In this document: piece by piece, positions 27,601 through 39,600 of the stretch
Numbering within the stretch: the first letter of the stretch is position 1
How the letters are laid out: every line of letters starts with the position of its first letter
Assembly (NCBI GenBank): GCA_030248065.1
Contig: JASAMV010003444.1
Span: 1 to 64,000, forward strand
Direction: 5' to 3'
DNA from: Rhynchonema sp. JSB1_4
Taxonomy: Eukaryota; Nematoda; Chromadorea; Monhysterida; Xyalidae
DNA length: 64,000 nucleotides
Position numbers and translations under genes: made by a program
Notes under the pieces: model-generated
Database searches by the model: none
What the model was told of the DNA's origin: nothing
The model's input: only the letters and a program-made list of their open reading frames with translations

Positions 27601-30600
27601 GGTCAAAATTCCGAAATTGCACACGGTGACGTGACGGTTCATTCCAGAATCGTCAAAAAAGCAATTTTTTAACCTCTGCCCTTAAGCGTAAGAATTTATT
27701 GGGGCTTGTTATATATCATTCGAAAGCTACTCCCGAGATACATTGTTTGGTGCTATCACATTTACGATAGCTGTTAACAATAAGCATTTATAGCTGAATA
27801 TCATATTCAGGTTGGTATGGCTGCCCCGAGAGATCTGTAGACCTTGGGGTCTTCGGACCTTGATAGGTTGTTTAAACAGACGTTTCTCTCATTTTTTTGT
27901 TTCGAATCCGATACAATCTGTGGCCTTTATGTGTCACAATTCTGGCGATGAATGTAACCACCTAATTTAGCGGCAATTTAATGAATTTTTAGGCCTGTCA
28001 CGGAGCCAGCCATGAGTCAAAAAATTTAAAAACCTTATTTTCTGGTACTTTCGACGTTGCTCTATTTCCCCATTGCATTTTTATTTCCGCAGCGCTAAGC
28101 GTGGCCTCAAAATTTAGGGACAAACTTGTGTTCTCGAAAAATAAGGCCGATTTTTTGGAACGTTTCGCATCCTCACCGTGTGAAGTAATGCTTTGAGCGA
28201 CTGAAGTTGTGATGGTAAGCTATTCGGAAGCTGTTGTAATCCTATCCATGTGTTACTTGACCTTCAACTCATTTGGGGTTTCTGCACCGGTCGTTCCAAT
28301 TTGTGCAAAAATTCACTTTTTTTCTGTAACGAAAAGTCGCTCTACCAAGAGATAGCGAATCTCCAAGGGGCTTAAAATTTGTGCGTGACATAGGCTGTCG
28401 GAATGCTATCCAACGGTGTGTAACAATATGTCCTGCTACCCTTCCTTCGGTTATGTCCCGAGCCCTTTAAAGGCGTTGCCATGTTGTGCCGTTTTGGCAA
28501 CTCACCAGCCAAGAAGCAGGCGCACGCCATCGCCGCTACCCGAAGTCCGAAGAAAGCGAACATTTTCGACGCCAACAACGGTCCAATGACGAGTGCCGCT
28601 GCATGCGGCACGCTCATGCCCACCATCATGGTGGACGTGCGCTCGCGTTCGGTGGTGACCGTGGCCAGGTACATTTCGGCACCGGCCTCGAAGTGGTAGC
28701 CGATTCGGAACAGTTGCGACAGCAGAAACGCCACGAATGAACCGGATTGACTGAGCGCGGCGTAGTAGGCCGCTGTCAGAACCACCGACAGGAGGAACAC
28801 AGATTTGGAGCCGGAAATGTCGATGAACTGCAATTGTGGAAAATGTGCTTGTCAACTGGCGACCATTCGGATACTAGAATCAAAGATGATGCGGTACCTG
28901 CCCAAGCAAGAACGCGCCGAGAGCGTTGCAGAAACTGCCGACAGCCTGCACATAGCCGATTTGTGTGACGTCCATCGGTGGTCGGGTGTCCCAGTGGAGG
29001 AAGGACATCAACGTGATCATCCATTGACTCGACGTCTGCCACAAGCCATAAGCAAGACACACCAGCAGCAGTGTGTTCTGTTTGCGCTGCATTTTGGCTT
29101 TGGATGTTGGATTCACCAAAACGCGGACTATTTCAGTTTCGCAAACTTGGTTTAAATTGATCCAAAAATTTTGCGAAGAAACTGATCAACACGATACTCT
29201 GAGCGACAATGTTAATCGCGAACCGTGCGCCACCTGTGTGAAAGAAAGGTCGCAGGTCACAATGACACTTCGTCGATAAAACTGTGTGCATGTTCTGTCG
29301 TTTGGATAAAGATATGCGGCAAGTGCCAACCAGTGACAGTGAATGTTTGAAGTACACAGGTTTGTTCTTTGTTGTAACATTGTCACTATGGTATAGTGTG
29401 CGAGAAACATTTACTTTGGGATATCAGGGCAAGATCTGCGCGGAGCCGCATTAAACCGAAATGTTTATCATATAAAAATCCAAGTGTGATAACAACAAAC
29501 TTTCGATGTGATGAAAAACCGAATGAGAAAAAGTTGAAACGATCCTTCGTAAATTTTAACCAGTGGGAAGTTCAACAAAACCCCAGAGCACGCCAAGCGA
29601 AATTTTGCACGCTGGAATACAAGCGAGTCTACGCACAAATACTATAGGATCTTAGGGTGGAATCTTCGAAACGGTGTAAAGGTCAGTTCGGCGTAGGTCG
29701 GTGAAACGAGCTCGGTGTAAACGTGAAACATTGCCTGTTATTAACGTGGAATGTTTCAAGTTCACCGGTCTATCACACTGACTCACCGCTTTCCACCGAC
29801 CTTTACACCCAACTGACCTTTACACCGTTCGAAAGATCCCCAGAAACATCGAAGAAATATCATTGTTCATCATCAGCGGTGAACGAAAGTGAAAGATCAG
29901 GAGGTTTTCTCGACACTTGGCAGCAGATCAATGTTTGAGTATTTCATGAATGCGCCGAAGAAGTGCACGACGAGAATGCCGGCAACTGATACGGCGGCAC
30001 TGACGTAGCAGAGTACTCCGAATTCGAACGCGGTGATGAAATATCCGGCAAGCAATGGGGTGAAGGCCGCCGAGAACAGTGTGACGCCTTGGCCGAGTCC
30101 GGCTGCTTTGCCGATGTCGCCCGCCTCGACCGAACCGATGATCTGCGCCGACGTCACGGCAAAACCGATCGATGTGCCGACTACCTGTAATCGGGTAACT
30201 TTGTGATGCTTCCGTGTCGCATTTTGAAAAGTGTGTTGTGTTGTCACTGCCAAGATTGACGTAAGAAACATGCAAATGTGAAGCATCCCGACACCCACCT
30301 GTAGTGGCAAGAGCGCCATCAGTTTCCAGTACGTATCGACGAGCGACAGCAGCAGATAAGTGACGGCGAGCAGCACCTGTGCGCCGATGAGCATGTGCTG
30401 ACCGGTCATGTGTCGTTGCATTGGTCGCATCAGCACCAAATTGGTGAACAACGCCGCCAGTCCGATAACGATGGCAATCCAGGACATGTCGCTGGGGTTG
30501 TCGACGATGAAGGACGCGAAATAGAAACGCGACATTTGGTCGTACGCCTGGAATGGCGCTTCGATCATCAGTCGGAACAGCAGACACCAAAGGAGACGTC

Positions 30601-33600
30601 GGTTGTGCAGGAATTGTGAGTAAACGGTCAGGGTGGGCAATTTGGTCGCGTACTGCATCGACATGTTGCTCCGAGGCTCAGGCACAACGAACAGGATCAC
30701 TGGCAGCAACGTCAGGATCATGAGGATGCCGGAGATGGCGTACGATGAACGCAGGTCGTAGTTGGTTAGGGAGAACGACTGGCCGGCCAGCCAGGGCCCG
30801 AACACGAGTGCGATGCCTGGAAATGGGCAAACATTCAGAATGTGTCCGTATACCTGTAAGTGACATGAAGCCCAAAATCAAACTTGGTGATCGGACAGTG
30901 GTTCCCAGGCTACAAATGAACGACTTGCTCTGGCCGAAATTAGTGGCGTCAGTAAATCTCGAAATATCGTCAGTGCAAAAAGTTACGTGACAAGCCAAGA
31001 CCAGACCGAGCCGGAACGATCACCACGTTTGATTTCCATTAAAATGACTAAACACACCGTGGGGTATGCCCATCCAGATAAGCGATCGCATACGTCCTTT
31101 GCTATCGGTCTCACTGTGCAGCGACCCGACGAACGCTTCGGCGATCTGCGGGAAGTTGCAGAAGATGCGCATGATCTGCACGATGCAGAATATGGCGACA
31201 CTGGTGATCTGACTGGCCAGAATCATGTACGCGCCGGCCACAACGCACACGAGCACAGCCGTGAACTTGGTGCCGGCACTGTCCAGCAGATGGCCGATGA
31301 TGAAGGTACCGCCGAGCACGAAAAAGTTGCCGATCGTATTGATTAACCCGATGTACCACATGTCCGGCTGTGGTTTGAGCTCCCACATCATGAACGGCTG
31401 GATCAGACGGCCCCATTGGTCGTAGGTCTGCCAGAGGAAGTAGGCGAGACCGATGCGCAGCAATGCGCTCGCCGTCTCACGCTTTGAGGTCATCATTTTG
31501 GTGAAGAATTGCGGTGATGGCGCCGAAAGCGCTCTGCTGAAATGAACTGCTCGATTGATGTGGCTCGACCAGTTTCATGTGAACAAAGAACACTTCTAAG
31601 CACAATTCTAGAATTCAGAGAATAATATAACACAGAAAGATGATGAGCGGATCTCTCGTAATTTCTGCGACAAAATTGTTACAAAGTTTCAAAAAGTGAA
31701 AGAACTCTGAAACTCGCGCGAAAGTCCAATTCGAAGCGAACAATGACAGACGAAGCGTTGTGAAATCGAGATTCGGTATATATGTTCCAGAAATACCAAG
31801 ACAAAACGTTCATTACCATTACGAACAAATTTGATGCACATGACTGGCTGGAATATGCATACAGGTGAAATTATACGCATAGTATATGTGTTTAATACAT
31901 TCGTTTCTCAAAAAAACGCAATACATACGCAAAAATCATGTGGGTGCCTTCCAACATGAGGTTTTGTGCCCGAGCGCCGCAGTGGTAATGCGCCGCCACG
32001 CTGAATATTTGCGATTGTGGTATCATATTGGTTACCACCTATTTTTTGCGTCTGATACCAGATAAAATACATTGCGCATAACGCAACGAGGTGTGGAAAC
32101 TGTATTATGCAACACAACGAAATGTTATCGGGGAAAACTAATCGGAAATAAAATAACGAAAAAATATTGCACGTGTGCGCACGGCCGGCTGGCTGGTTAT
32201 TTGCGTGCCAGTACGTTGTCGATTATTTTCTAAACACAACAACAAAGTAAACGCAAGAAGATCCCAAACGCACTGGACGCGCTCGCACAGCGCAGCGAGT
32301 GAAGTTGAGTCTGAGAGTGTGTGCATAATAACATAGAGACGATATGTATTGATTGGTACCACCACAAGTGCAACTCTGCAATCCTGCTGCACTCACGCAA
32401 TATCACGAACGAACACATGTACACCTGACTCTGGTGCATATATGCAGCGGTGTGGTCGATGCATGTACACATCATCGCGTCACATGTACCGAATGTATAC
32501 ATGTACCCACGCACGTATGGACGGATAACTGGGCCGTATGTACACATGTAGTTGCGTTAAACGAAGGTTGAGACCGGAGAACAACAACAACCGAAATCTG
32601 AATGTCCATAAGTGCATACATAACCCATTGCATGTGTGTGTGCAAAACAGACTGTATGTATCTGCCTGGTCGGCTGTTCTGACCGAACTGTTGTGTTTGT
32701 TGAGAAAGTGTTGCGCCAGGTTTTATGTACTACGGCGGACCACAATGACTGTACTTCACCACGTTCGATCAGTGGCGTAAGAAGTACATGTAATGGATAT
32801 GGCAAGGCGCTCGCTCGGCACTGATACACTACACAAAATGTGATATGTGGTGGACACTTGCCGCAATGCCTTTGCTGAATAACTCTCTCCTACTTGTCCC
32901 ACCGGCAAGGTCAATCAAGGTCAGAAAAAGTGACTGCGTAAGCGAACATTGATGTGTAGAACTTGGTGTTCAGACAGATACAGTATGTCATATGAACATA
33001 ACAAATAATACGGACTTTGATATGGTGTTTGTTAGCTGTCAGTCACCATTGCGCACTGCTGCATAGTAAGTATTGCGAATCACTTCGAGTGCAAACAGTG
33101 GCACAACAATTTGCAACCGCTGCAGCCTAAAACATAGCAGTGTCCGAAAACAAGCGCACATGCTTGTTCTAATTCAGCATTTCTGGGTCATATACCCAGA
33201 ATCTGACTTTCTGGAGCATTTTTTGAACGGCAGGAAATAAAGTACAATTACGAGCTGGTCTTGGAATACAGGGGCCAGCAAGACCTTGTTTCATATGGCT
33301 ATGTACGATAAAAACCCGTACGTGTTCATATGCACTGTGAACGATCGACTTAATATTAGACACGTCATGCTAAAGTTGTACAGACGATTCCTACTCAGTT
33401 ATTCTGCTCAAAAAGGGAGCTACATGTACAATTCCTATGTTCTCTGACAAAGATTTGTGCTGGGGTTGTAAGTTCCAAATGTAACTGACACTTGTTCGTT
33501 GTGTCATTGTACATCGAGCATGGAAGGACTGATTCGGCTGAGAATTGGGTACTGGATTTTTCGAGCAAGGGGGATCTGAATACTGGAATATTTTTTAGAC

Positions 33601-36600
33601 CGGGCACATTGGGCTCAAAAAATAGGGCCAGATCAACTCAAGATACGGAATTCTTCCTTCTCCTGACAAAATTTGTGTTTGTGTGTTTGTTTTTTGTTGG
33701 ACCACATAATGATCAGATCAAAGAAATAAGTCCATATTCGAGTTTCCCGTTTTCAAAACCATGCCTTTCGGTCCAAATCCAAGTATTTTTTGTATCTTGG
33801 ACCCAAATTTGAGCGGACCCTGTTTTGGACCCAAGGTGCCCGACCAAAGAAATATTTCACAATTCGGATTCCCCATGCTGAAAACATACTGGTGTACCTA
33901 ATTTTCATGCTTTTCCATATACCACGAAAAATGTTGCTACTCTTGGAAGTTGGAACACACAGTGGTTGATAGTTCAGGCGAAGATATCGGAAGGAACCGT
34001 TCTTCATTTGCGGTTGCGACATTCGTGAAACCACTGATTAACAGTTTTTGTTGCGCAAAAAAATACTTATTTCGGTAAGTGAAGGAGACACCTGGCCAAG
34101 TTCCCACACAGAACGTATATGTATATGTACATATATGCTGTTTGTTGAAACCGGGTGAAAGCACATTAAAGTTTTCGCGTAAAACACAGGAAATACAGAA
34201 CAAATAAACAACAAGAGCATCGCTCGGTGCATCTGCATGACAGTGACACGTCTGTTGATTCTGACCGGCATAGGCACTGGTCGAACGTTCTCGAAATAAG
34301 TTGAAAGTGTAGCAAGATTGGAAGAAGAATAGCATCAGGGCAAAAGCTCGAAAACAGATACATATCACGTCTATTTATAGTCATATCTCATTGTTCGATT
34401 TTGTTCGGCCCAAACAGTCAGCGTGTGCTCTCTTCAGTTCAGCGAATCTGACTTTGGCCTCTTCGTACAGCACCAAATCAGCCCACTGAATTTTCTGAAT
34501 CTTCCGCCGTTGCCCAGCACTGACCTCTTTCATATTGAAGTCACTCGATTTGTCAGTTTTCGAGGGTTTGACTAGTCCAACTTTCATTGTGTTGGCAAGT
34601 TGTTCGTGCTGACCAACGTCAAAGTACTCACGCGACCAACCGGTGAGACCAGGGTTGGGCAAAAAAAAACGACGGCGTTTTTTCTTAAAAAAAACGACGT
34701 TTTTTTTAAAAAAAAACGCCTGGGTCGTTTTTCGTTTTTTTTAAATCCTGAATTTCCTTGATTTTCCCTGATTTTTCAAGGAAAGTACCCTGATTTTCAA
34801 GGAAAATCAACTTTTTGTCCCATTTTTTTCAAAAAATGTTCGACCAATTTTTACTTTGTCGAGATACGTCGATATACGGAGTTTGACTTTCAGTGATGAC
34901 CCCGGCCAAAGTTGGTCCCATGATGCGGGTCTGATATGGGATCTTAACAACTCGCTAGAAATGGGTTGAAACCCGTTTATTTTGCCTCAGAACACATAGA
35001 ATTACTTCATTTAACCACGTTTTCTCCCCAACATGAGCGTTTTCCAATTTTTTTGGGGGCATATTTTGGTCATCTGGGCGTTTTAAAAAAAACGTTTTTT
35101 TAAAAAAAAAACGTTTTTTTAAAAAAAAAACGATTTTTTGAAAAAAAACGTTTTTTGCCCAACCCTGGGTGAGACACGCGAGGAGATCGTAGGATTCATC
35201 TAGTTGGTCGTACAAGCCGACAAAATTGAGCTCACGCAGATACACGAGTGTGTCGTTCAGTTGGTCGTGCGTGAATTCGTGCGTCAAACCGAGCATTTTG
35301 CTCTGCACATTCGCGATTTCGGGCTTGGACGGTTTGATGAGCAGGCGGTCAAAGTCGACCGTGTTGCCGATTTTGATGCTCATGGTTGACGGGTCCCTTT
35401 TCACACTCGCAACTGACAGTGCAGCCTTGGATGTTCATGAAGCATACATGATGTTCTCTTGTTCGCTGATGTGCTCTGTTGATTAAGATTGCAGTGTGAT
35501 TGGCGTGTCCGATTACTGGAGAATGCGAAACCAAGTCACATCTTCCCCAACCCACCCAAGAATAAGTCCCACTGGGGAGCTAATTCGGCAGTTTTTTTCT
35601 GAATCAGTAACGACCTGTGGGCATGTTTCATGTGCTTATATGCACACTTTTGGGAAATCTCAAATCCGAAGTAAGTTCCAATTCCAAATAAGCGCCCAGG
35701 GGCATTTGGCGTTCTCTGGCACGTTTGGTTGGTATCCAACTCTACTAGTCCCTAAATTAGGATTCCCATTTGTCATGTCACCATTGAATGCTTCATCTCA
35801 ACATCTATGGCTGCACTGTAGTGTTCAACGGGGTCTCGAACGATGGTGAATCTGAATGCTGTTGGGTCATGGTCGAAATGTTTATCAAGATATTCGCGAT
35901 TCTCAGCGAAGATGCGTGGAAACGGTTCGATTATCGCTGAAATGATCATAAATAATTTTGAGCGCACGAGCGACTATTTTTGAGACAATGATCTATGCAT
36001 ATATACCTGGCAGTGAGCCATTCAAGAACGGCTGGCTCACTTCGGGTCGACAACACGTTTGAACGCGTGTCACGGTGAACGTGTCGCTGCTGAACGTTGA
36101 TAGCGGATGTCGGTCGCGACACACACTGTAGAACTTGTAAACCTGTTGTGATTCAATCAATTTGTCGGAGAAATGGGTGATTCGACATGAATTGCCTTGT
36201 GGTAATCATCAGCCTCGGTCTAGAGTCGAGGGGCTTGGACGAGTACATTTGACCAGCGTAAAAGTTGTTCTGGGAGCACCAGCAAACAACGTTCGCACTG
36301 ATATTGGTCGCACAATGACCATATAAGAATTCATCAAATCAATCCTGATTTTCACGTTCAGTCACTCTTAACCACTGTGCTATTTGTGATTCTTACAAAA
36401 CATTTTCACCTGAAAATAATCCAGCAGATCAACCACGCTGGCGCAGGTCTGAAACATTCTCTTTACTACATGCTTTGTATGCGACCGCGCAACGCAACGT
36501 CATTGCCCAGTCACTTTCCCTCTTTACGATTCAGGAAAAAATGACCAATTCTTATAAAGTCATGGTGCAACCAATACAATGTTTGACACATGGACAAGCC

Positions 36601-39600
36601 GAGACAGACCACAGATTGAGGTTGATGTTTCAATGGGTGACTGAACAGGGTCGCTCACCATAACGAAAGGTGTGCACTTGTTGCCTCCGGGGCAGCCACA
36701 GTAACCACAGTCGCAATATGCCAGACACCGCAGCTGCAATTGATTGCAGACAAAACGGAGCGCATTGCCGGTCTCACGATTGGCAGTGTTGTAGATGGAC
36801 AGGTAGACAAATCTGCGCACCGGTTTGCTGAGATGTGAATCATTGGAACTCATCTTCGACGTTGTGCCCATTTCACCAAATGTTTTATCGTGCTCATGGC
36901 TTTGTTGTCGAATTGATGGATCGATTGACAAGTGATTGATGACCAGAAATGCAGTGACGCACAGCACAATTATCGTGATATGTAGCGCACGCAGATGAGT
37001 GTTCGACGAAGTTGCGGCGTTCTTCGTGAACCCCGATTTGACCGCCATGCTCGACTATCAATATCAAATGGGTGGTTTGCTTGGGATAGTTACTTATGAA
37101 AACGGGAACGCACGTAAAAACCGAAAGCCGTTGTGCACAAAAAAACTACCCTCGGCACGAACGGCTACGTATGATACTCTCTGCTCTGGTAGACTGCATT
37201 CGTTTACAATGTCGTATAGTGTATTTTACAACAACTGCGCTGTTTCATGGTACCACGTCATGCGTGTTTTCAGTTTGGTGTAAGTAAGCCGCTTACCAAT
37301 TTCGCAGCATGCGCGCACGTGATGTGGTGTGATATTCACGCATCAACAATGTGTTTTGTCCTCGGGGGGATGAGTTATAAAAAGTGGTCCATATGACCCC
37401 AGGGGCATACAGCGCGGTATTATGACCAGATCAAACTGGGATCCTCATTCAGGCGGTCTCGACCTGAAAGCGCAAGAGGCAGCGCTGCGCCGAGGGCCTG
37501 ACATTGTGATCGCCACACCCGGGCGATTGATTGATCATTTGCACAACACACCGTCGTTCACGTTGAATAACATCGAGATATTGGTGTTGGATGAAGCGGA
37601 CAGGTATATCATGTCCAGGACGTAACCAAGGTACGGTCACTGACTGGCTGTCCTTGACTCAAGTAACCGGGGCAGTGACCAACCTGAAATTCTGCTATGA
37701 GAACGGAAAAGAGTGTACCTGTCAGGTCATATTTTGGTATCTCCCTTCTATTTGACGAAAAAATGGCTCACCATACCTACCCCTATCGATCGATAAATGA
37801 ATTGTTGCGTTACAGAATGCTGGACGAATACTTTGCCGAACAAATGAACGAACTGATCCGTTTGTGCGCGCGCAATCGCCAGACCATGCTGTTTTCGGCG
37901 ACCATGTCTGATAAAGTGGGTGTGCTTTTAGGTTATCAAACGTGGTGCTCGCGTTGGTTGGTCACGTGATTATTTTTGCATTCGGAGTAGTTCGAAATGA
38001 TTGGTGGCACTGATTTGACCAGCGTAAATATTCGCCGGTCATAAGTTTCACGCTTGTTGCGCTTAGCGTGATCAGTTCATAATGATAGAAAGATACAGGC
38101 ATATTAGAAAGCCACGTGATCAAGTTCTCTCCATCACCAGGTTTGACACCGGTCACATATCACAAACACGGCAGTGAGTTTACCCAACGTCAAAACAAGC
38201 TATTCTTCCGTTTCTTTCACAGGTAAACGACTTGGCCGCAGTGTCGCTCATCAAACCAGTCAAGTTGTTCGTCAACCAGAATACGGATGTTGCGTTTAAT
38301 CTTCGTCAAGAGTTTGTGAGAATACGCGCCAATCGAGAGGGCGATAGAGAGGCGATTGTGTGCGGTTGGATTCTAGTGTGTAAATATAGCGCGCGCATAA
38401 AAATGTTGTTTATAACAGCCTCGTCGTGCGTTGCAGCATGGCACGTGTCATGCATGATGTATTTCATTTTGTGTTACCGTACGTTTATGCGCGCGCTATG
38501 TTTGTACATCATATCGAACTGATCAAAGAAATGCACGATGCTACCGGCGTTGGTTTGCCGGTGATTCCCGATTTTCGTTCACCACCATCTGACATCAAAC
38601 ATCCTTTGGTTTGCAGCACTGCTCACTCGCACATTCCCGGATCACGTGATGCTGTTCGTACAAACCAAACGTCAATGTCATCGAATGCATTTGGTGTTGG
38701 GCTTGTTGGGTGTGCGCGTCGCTGAGATGCACGGCAATCTGTCGCAGACGCAGGTGCCGTCCATTTTTTGTTTGTGTGGCATGCTTGGTTTTCTTTGGTT
38801 GGAGAGTTATAAAACATCAGCACCGGCCTTTCCCTTTTTAATGTGCAGACTTTGGAGAAAGCGTAGTGTAGTCGATAAATTTTCGATTATCAGTAATTCG
38901 ACCTGAATGCAGATAGAGCACCAGGACTAATGAACAACTTTTTGCGCTGGTCAAATGTTTGATTTTAAAAAATTTCTGAAAATCGAGACAAACCGCAAGA
39001 CTTGACCCTAACCGAGGTTGATGTCTGTTACATACCACACATTTTTTGTATACTAGGAGCTTATTTTGTCTTCAGCGTATCGAGGCGTTGGCTCGATTCA
39101 AGAAAGCCGAAGTCGACGTGCTCGTATCCACCGATTTGGCCGCTCGAGGACTCGATATTGAGGGCGTGAAAACGGTGGGCTCGGTTAATTTTGTACCAGA
39201 AAACATCGAACAACCGTCGACGGCTGATCTCAAACTTTGTTGTCGGTCATGTAACTTTTTTGTGGCGACGTGATTTCATGTTTCGCTAATGCCTGCCTCA
39301 ATTTTGACCAGCGTTGAACTTGGACCGAGACAACAAAAATCAGCCAGTTCTGCACCGATCAAAACTGGTGTCGTCAGTAAACTTGACAATAATCTTGATA
39401 GTCTTGTGACCCACGTAAGACATCGCCGAACCGACCACCAAGTTTAATAATTCCCAATTTGTTAGGTGCTGAATCTGACCATGCCCAATTCCGTGAAACA
39501 TTACGTGCATCGTGTCGGTCGGACGGCGCGAGCGGGCAGAGCCGGACGGTCCGTGTCGTTGGTCGGTGAACAGGAACGAAAGATATTGAAAGACATCGTC

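Follow-up and report, generated by a model that had tools for sequence, protein, structure and literature searches.

A recently inserted 518-bp hAT-like MITE splits the last exon of a sulfotransferase-like gene of Rhynchonema sp. JSB1_4

In the window, by which we mean the whole 64,000-nucleotide stretch of DNA analysed, taken from the start of contig C2094 in a draft genome of 203.9 Mb and 5,747 contigs, a 518-bp element splits the last exon of a sulfotransferase-like gene on the minus strand. In kind, the event is an ordinary recent MITE insertion. We are confident that it is best read as a recent cut-and-paste insertion of a non-autonomous, Ac/Hermes-like hAT MITE in the last exon, with a likely loss of function. 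The features discussed here are collected in Table 1.

Table 1. Positions of the inserted element and of its host gene in the window
Feature	Coordinates	Strand	Basis or remark
MITE, non-autonomous, hAT-type	34650..35167	.	518 bp; ends, target-site duplication, copies
Target-site duplication GGTGAGAC, copy 1	34642..34649	.	also coding
Target-site duplication GGTGAGAC, copy 2	35168..35175	.	
Terminal inverted repeat CAGGGTTGGGCAAAAAA	34650..34666	+	
Terminal inverted repeat CAGGGTTGGGCAAAAAA	35151..35167	-	
Premature stop codon within element	34955..34957	-	frame reading
AATAAA within element on the gene's sense strand, candidate premature polyadenylation signal	34976..34981	-	
Last exon, part downstream of insertion	34384..34641	-	paralog matches
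Last exon, part upstream of insertion	35176..35431	-	start approximate, placed where the longest paralog match begins
Upstream exon	35790..35936	-	35790 approximate, donor end unsettled
Upstream exon ending ...NGSLP	36007..36142	-	
First exon; encodes a hydrophobic N-terminal stretch and a degenerate 5'-PSB-like region	36659..37048	-	

The element has a G+C content of 35%, against 45% window-wide. Its two ends are 17 identical bases in inverted orientation (CAGGGTTGGGCAAAAAA), and an identical 8-bp target-site duplication (TSD), GGTGAGAC, flanks it on both sides. On re-reading the sequence, the coordinates, base count, frame and stop of the first-pass annotation all proved correct. The 13-base end CAGGGTTGGGCAA has exact matches in the window at the two element ends only; allowing up to two mismatches brings the total in the window to six, where 1.86 would be expected, and no mention of it was found in the literature available. 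The longest stop-to-stop frame inside the element spans 70 codons, and scans of the window for Rfam families and for tRNAs (the latter with a tool using the bacterial code) gave no match.

Across the whole genome, there are 4,812 exact instances of the 17-base end (2,429 + 2,383) and none of its reversed control. A rough extrapolation from the first 100 ends listed, which come from the first contigs only, gives about 3,650 elements in which one or both ends are exact; 48 of these 100 ends form 24 opposite (+/-) pairs of 454-532 bp. In a similarity search with 2,715 candidates, of which the best 40 were scored, these 40 comprise the window copy and 39 others that are nearly full-length and 96-98% identical; the search gave 124 rows, and the other 84 are short pieces. 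A perfect 8-bp TSD borders 27 of the 29 distinct copies read at both ends, window copy included, the remaining two showing one TSD mismatch and a small insertion in one TSD copy, respectively. Two additional copies, at L028 and L067, also have a perfect TSD. Over 515 columns of ten aligned copies, the window copy carries one private substitution and the others 1 to 16. This single substitution and the perfect TSD indicate that the window insertion is young, in agreement with its initial description as a recent event. The family is short, non-coding, homogeneous and high in copy number, as expected of a MITE. Another copy, C4461:17116-17633 (L022), sits at GGTGAAAC, one base off the window target site; its contig is absent from both flank-search results given below, and the likeness lies in the target site alone. 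At nine further insertion sites, long ORFs are common in the flanks, so that a long-ORF test does not discriminate.

The insertion point splits Cys-Leu-Thr|Gly-Trp. Deletion in silico of 526 bases, comprising the element and one TSD copy, leaves a single open minus-strand frame that reads CLT-GW, as had been proposed, and the paralogs are uninterrupted there. With the insertion in place, the frame enters A/T-rich sequence and ends at the premature stop after 159 codons counting from 35434, which also confirms the earlier reading. Because the GGTTGG of the terminal inverted repeat (TIR) coincidentally repeats the GGTTGG 3' of the target site, the interrupted frame keeps Gly-Trp before it runs into the A/T tracts. 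Seven of the 14 invariant positions in a nine-paralog exon alignment fall 3' of the insertion point, and its placement within the conserved C-terminal region of a coding exon is supported. The frameshift and premature stop suggest that the insertion truncates one member of the gene family, and a null allele, one of the outcomes first put forward, is probable.

Of 29 matches in this genome, 13 paralogous regions were picked for comparison with five minus-strand ORF pieces (34384-37048). Paralog matches were obtained for four of the five pieces, and those four exons are open frames; the putative second exon has no paralog match at E<=0.1 among the 13 regions. The insertion point is covered by 13 paralog matches from 12 regions, every one of them uninterrupted, with TGW at this point in nine and LGW or LKW in four. 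The empty site is inferred only from these paralogs, since no homologues were found elsewhere: outside this genome there were none at E<=1 for the joined gene (1,727 candidates) and none at E<=0.01 for the family alignment (1,870 candidates). Two of the paralogous regions, L062 (C2939) and L063 (C5306), are 94-99% alike over two blocks totalling about 4.4 kb, and may be recent duplicates or separated haplotypes. Beside another paralog lies a full-length MITE copy (L067:3786-4304, 96% identical, TSD GTCATGAG), outside the recognised exons. In the window itself, most of the gene's likely first intron is filled by a second high-copy repeat of ~278 bp (36300-36577, ends TATTGGTYGCACAATGAC...), of which 39 other copies at 93-96% identity were found among 40 scored of 2,730 candidates.

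The paralogs also bear on the doubtful alternative that the gene was already a pseudogene, so that the element hit dead sequence. The last exon of the window gene is 33-51% identical to nine aligned paralog rows. Upstream of the insertion point, mean identity between window and paralogs is 53%, compared with 47-48% among the paralogs; downstream, it is 35%, compared with 36-38%. Eight of the nine resulting down/up identity ratios of the window exon against the paralogs (0.52-0.83) are lower than the median obtained for 36 pairs of paralogs (~0.79; range 0.43-1.05), a pattern that would suit a prior pseudogene, as would the unmatched putative second exon and the one unsettled donor. However, the higher upstream identity alone lowers the ratio, and the downstream identity is close to that between paralogs. 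Furthermore, the four paralog-matched exons are open, and the gene has both a donor (GTGAGC) and acceptors (CAG). The joined exon is stop-free, and its part behind the element displays no clear decay. Other parts of the gene may nonetheless carry an older lesion.

The name sulfotransferase, as first assigned to the host gene, received weak profile support, and the order of motifs is consistent with it. A profile of ten family members aligned with heparan sulfate 6-O-sulfotransferase 3 (5t03) at a whole-sequence E of 0.0049 (best single stretch, i-E 0.11), and five of the ten aligned members match PF03567 (Sulfotransfer_2) at E<=1, with a best value of 8.6e-5. Against this stands the joined window protein, which matches PF03567 at E=0.33 and 11.5 bits, below the curated cut-off of 22; taken singly, the exons of the window gene have no sulfotransferase match in Pfam. 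The lysine of the 5'-PSB loop is catalytic. In a survey of this loop that included L062-L070, L073 and L074 among the paralogs, the window gene reads YNTANR (36659-37048), many paralogs read YHTASR, and HKT occurs in two of the 12 paralogs in which the segment is seen (L070 and L074). From these residues, a pseudo-enzyme or altered-substrate expansion is a possible description of this family, whose loop mostly lacks the lysine.

The superfamily of the element can be approached through its ends and target sites. TIRs of hAT elements often begin with CAGGG or TAGGG. Read from both sides, the 27 perfect TSDs favour G-T-T-G / C-A-A-C. Position 2 is T in 23 of 54 ends, a count reached by none of 5,000 within-TSD shuffles in a test that was made after inspecting the TSDs and with the two imperfect ones dropped. 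This T2/A7 pattern is a bias rather than a rule: the window TSD itself departs from it at position 2, which is G, and keeps the A at position 7. The available portion of PMC3517528 describes hAT elements as having 8-bp TSDs and short TIRs of 5-27 bp, and that of PMC10368747 gives nTnnnnAn as the target preference of Hermes; the present family has 8-bp TSDs, 17-bp TIRs and the nTnnnnAn preference. At symmetrised position 4 we counted G 23, C 15, T 9 and A 7 of 54, which does not match the Buster consensus nnnTAnnn, as given in the same portion of PMC3517528, and a Buster type was rejected. The TSD bias thus fits an Ac/Hermes-type hAT, not Buster, and together with the 8-bp TSDs and CAGGG ends it supports the initial label of a hAT-like element.

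The potential mover was sought through the hAT dimerisation domain. PF05699 gave 150 scored matches of 330 candidates in this genome, all above cut-off, and matched in none of 14 control genomes. None of 20 transposase loci among the 330 candidates, inspected with ~1.5 kb of flank on each side, carries the TIR pair of the family; one of the 20 has a single end with two mismatches. Among the first 100 ends listed, four +/- neighbours are 1,196, 3,556, 3,334 and 10,830 bp apart. The two stretches bounded by opposite TIR ends at 3.3-3.6 kb, C93:22195-25528 and C77:9400-12955, could be autonomous copies.

P elements and Merlin also generate 8-bp TSDs, and a MITE from one of these or a similar superfamily is an unlikely source of the family. 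The 29 TSDs have 56% G+C and match GGCCAGAC, the P-element target site, slightly better than shuffled ones, at 3.03 compared with 2.67 (110 of 2,000 shuffles as high). In addition, TSD position 3 is as biased as position 2, a feature absent from the Hermes pattern. On the other hand, hAT is the superfamily that suits both the CAGGG ends and the T2/A7 bias, and hAT transposase domains are frequent in this genome. The P-element reading was set aside, the TSD match being weak and PF21787 uninformative: a search with this domain found no match, and as its control also matched nowhere, the result carries little weight.

A transposon in the process of becoming an intron, as suggested by the first-pass annotation, found no positive support. 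An exact intron would have to start in, or just after, the first TSD copy and end at the matching place in the second, and none of the nine possible introns that excise exactly 526 bases has GT-AG, GC-AG or AT-AC ends. Exact excision was therefore rejected on its splice dinucleotides. We consider it very unlikely that the element is instead wholly or partly spliced out of the mRNA as a new introner-like intron. The sequence does contain 62 in-frame, stop-free GT-AG pairs, although many such pairs are expected by chance in 518 bases. On a generic splice-site matrix, the best pair, with its donor at 35005 and its acceptor at 34684, has a summed score of 2.7, and the gene's own intron 36006-35937 one of 2.0 (2.2 and -0.2); because the best pair is no worse than this intron, the splice scores allow inexact splicing. 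The best pair would nevertheless keep 204 extra bases (68 codons; 196 bases from the element) in a conserved exon. Introners with TSDs and/or TIRs are known, some of which add codons to the message, and one of Aureococcus with an 8-bp TSD keeps 12 extra bases in the transcript, according to the available portion of PMC9860276. In the parts of the literature available on Ds elements that make introns, only human and mouse elements turned up. Two paralogs, L068 and L069, have a likely intron further along the same exon, with GTGAG donors and TTCAG acceptors, and the MITE does not match these introns. The broader proposition, that the insertion is tolerated through inexact splicing in the element and that MITEs of this family are beginning, imperfectly, to supply the genome with new introns or exon tails, appears equally improbable.

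Searches of the assembly with the two flanks returned no contig with an empty site: the 3' flank (34100-34641) matched only itself, and the 5' flank (35176-36295) itself and three short places at 75-81%. For a control stretch of the window (29900-31580), there was likewise a single full match; a further 45 matches were short and mostly fell on a repeat within the stretch. From these matches the assembly looks collapsed at the insertion locus, though L062 and L063, which are 94-99% alike, may be haplotypes. An assembly chimera, for which the draft state with 5,747 contigs might speak, is hardly credible, as it would not be expected to leave identical 8-bp repeats directly at the two ends of the element.

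Under the preferred reading of a recent cut-and-paste hAT insertion, a transposase supplied in trans from elsewhere in the genome would be the likely mover. It would have cut the GGTGAGAC target with an 8-bp stagger, and gap repair would have duplicated this site. Since 526, the number of bases gained, is not divisible by three, the frame would shift, and a ribosome would read ~70 codons of the element and halt at 34957-34955. The last ~86 residues, holding seven of the 14 invariant positions, would be lost, and premature polyadenylation at the sense-strand AATAAA (34981-34976) might add to this effect. The predicted outcome is a loss-of-function copy in a multigene family.

The insertion brings to light a hAT-type MITE family that has been active recently and is present in many copies (about 3,600 by a rough estimate), and it clearly shows the disruption of a coding exon at an early stage, with uninterrupted paralogs for comparison. 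The site could also serve as a marker for presence/absence polymorphism and as a place to examine the birth of MITE-derived introns. The general picture is unchanged by this finding. In the available portions of the literature on hAT MITEs in coding exons, a sulfotransferase case was not found.

Several known systems resemble parts of this locus. Aligned via the family profile, the host gene shares an RDPV stretch and a C-terminal D..LYE.AK.LF segment with heparan sulfate 6-O-sulfotransferase 3; the relation is remote, and the window gene and ten of 12 paralogs have no 5'-PSB loop lysine. With introners, as described in the available part of PMC9860276, the element has in common that it is a short, high-copy, TIR- and TSD-bearing element within coding sequence, but it has no splice sites at its TSD or ends for exact repair of the message. 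The likeness to the Hermes/Ac type, as far as the accessible text of PMC10368747 goes, consists of the 8-bp nTnnnnAn target and the 17-bp TIRs; in contrast to that type, the window element has no transposase gene. Mar, a Buster-type hAT MITE of Drosophila willistoni, has ends CAG(G/A)GGTAGGC similar to CAGGGTTGGGC here, and the two elements have 8-bp TSDs, A+T-richness and recent mobilisation in common (PMC3517528, in the portion available). They differ in target site, nnnTAnnn for Mar against GTTG/CAAC with T2/A7 in the present family, which numbers thousands of copies.
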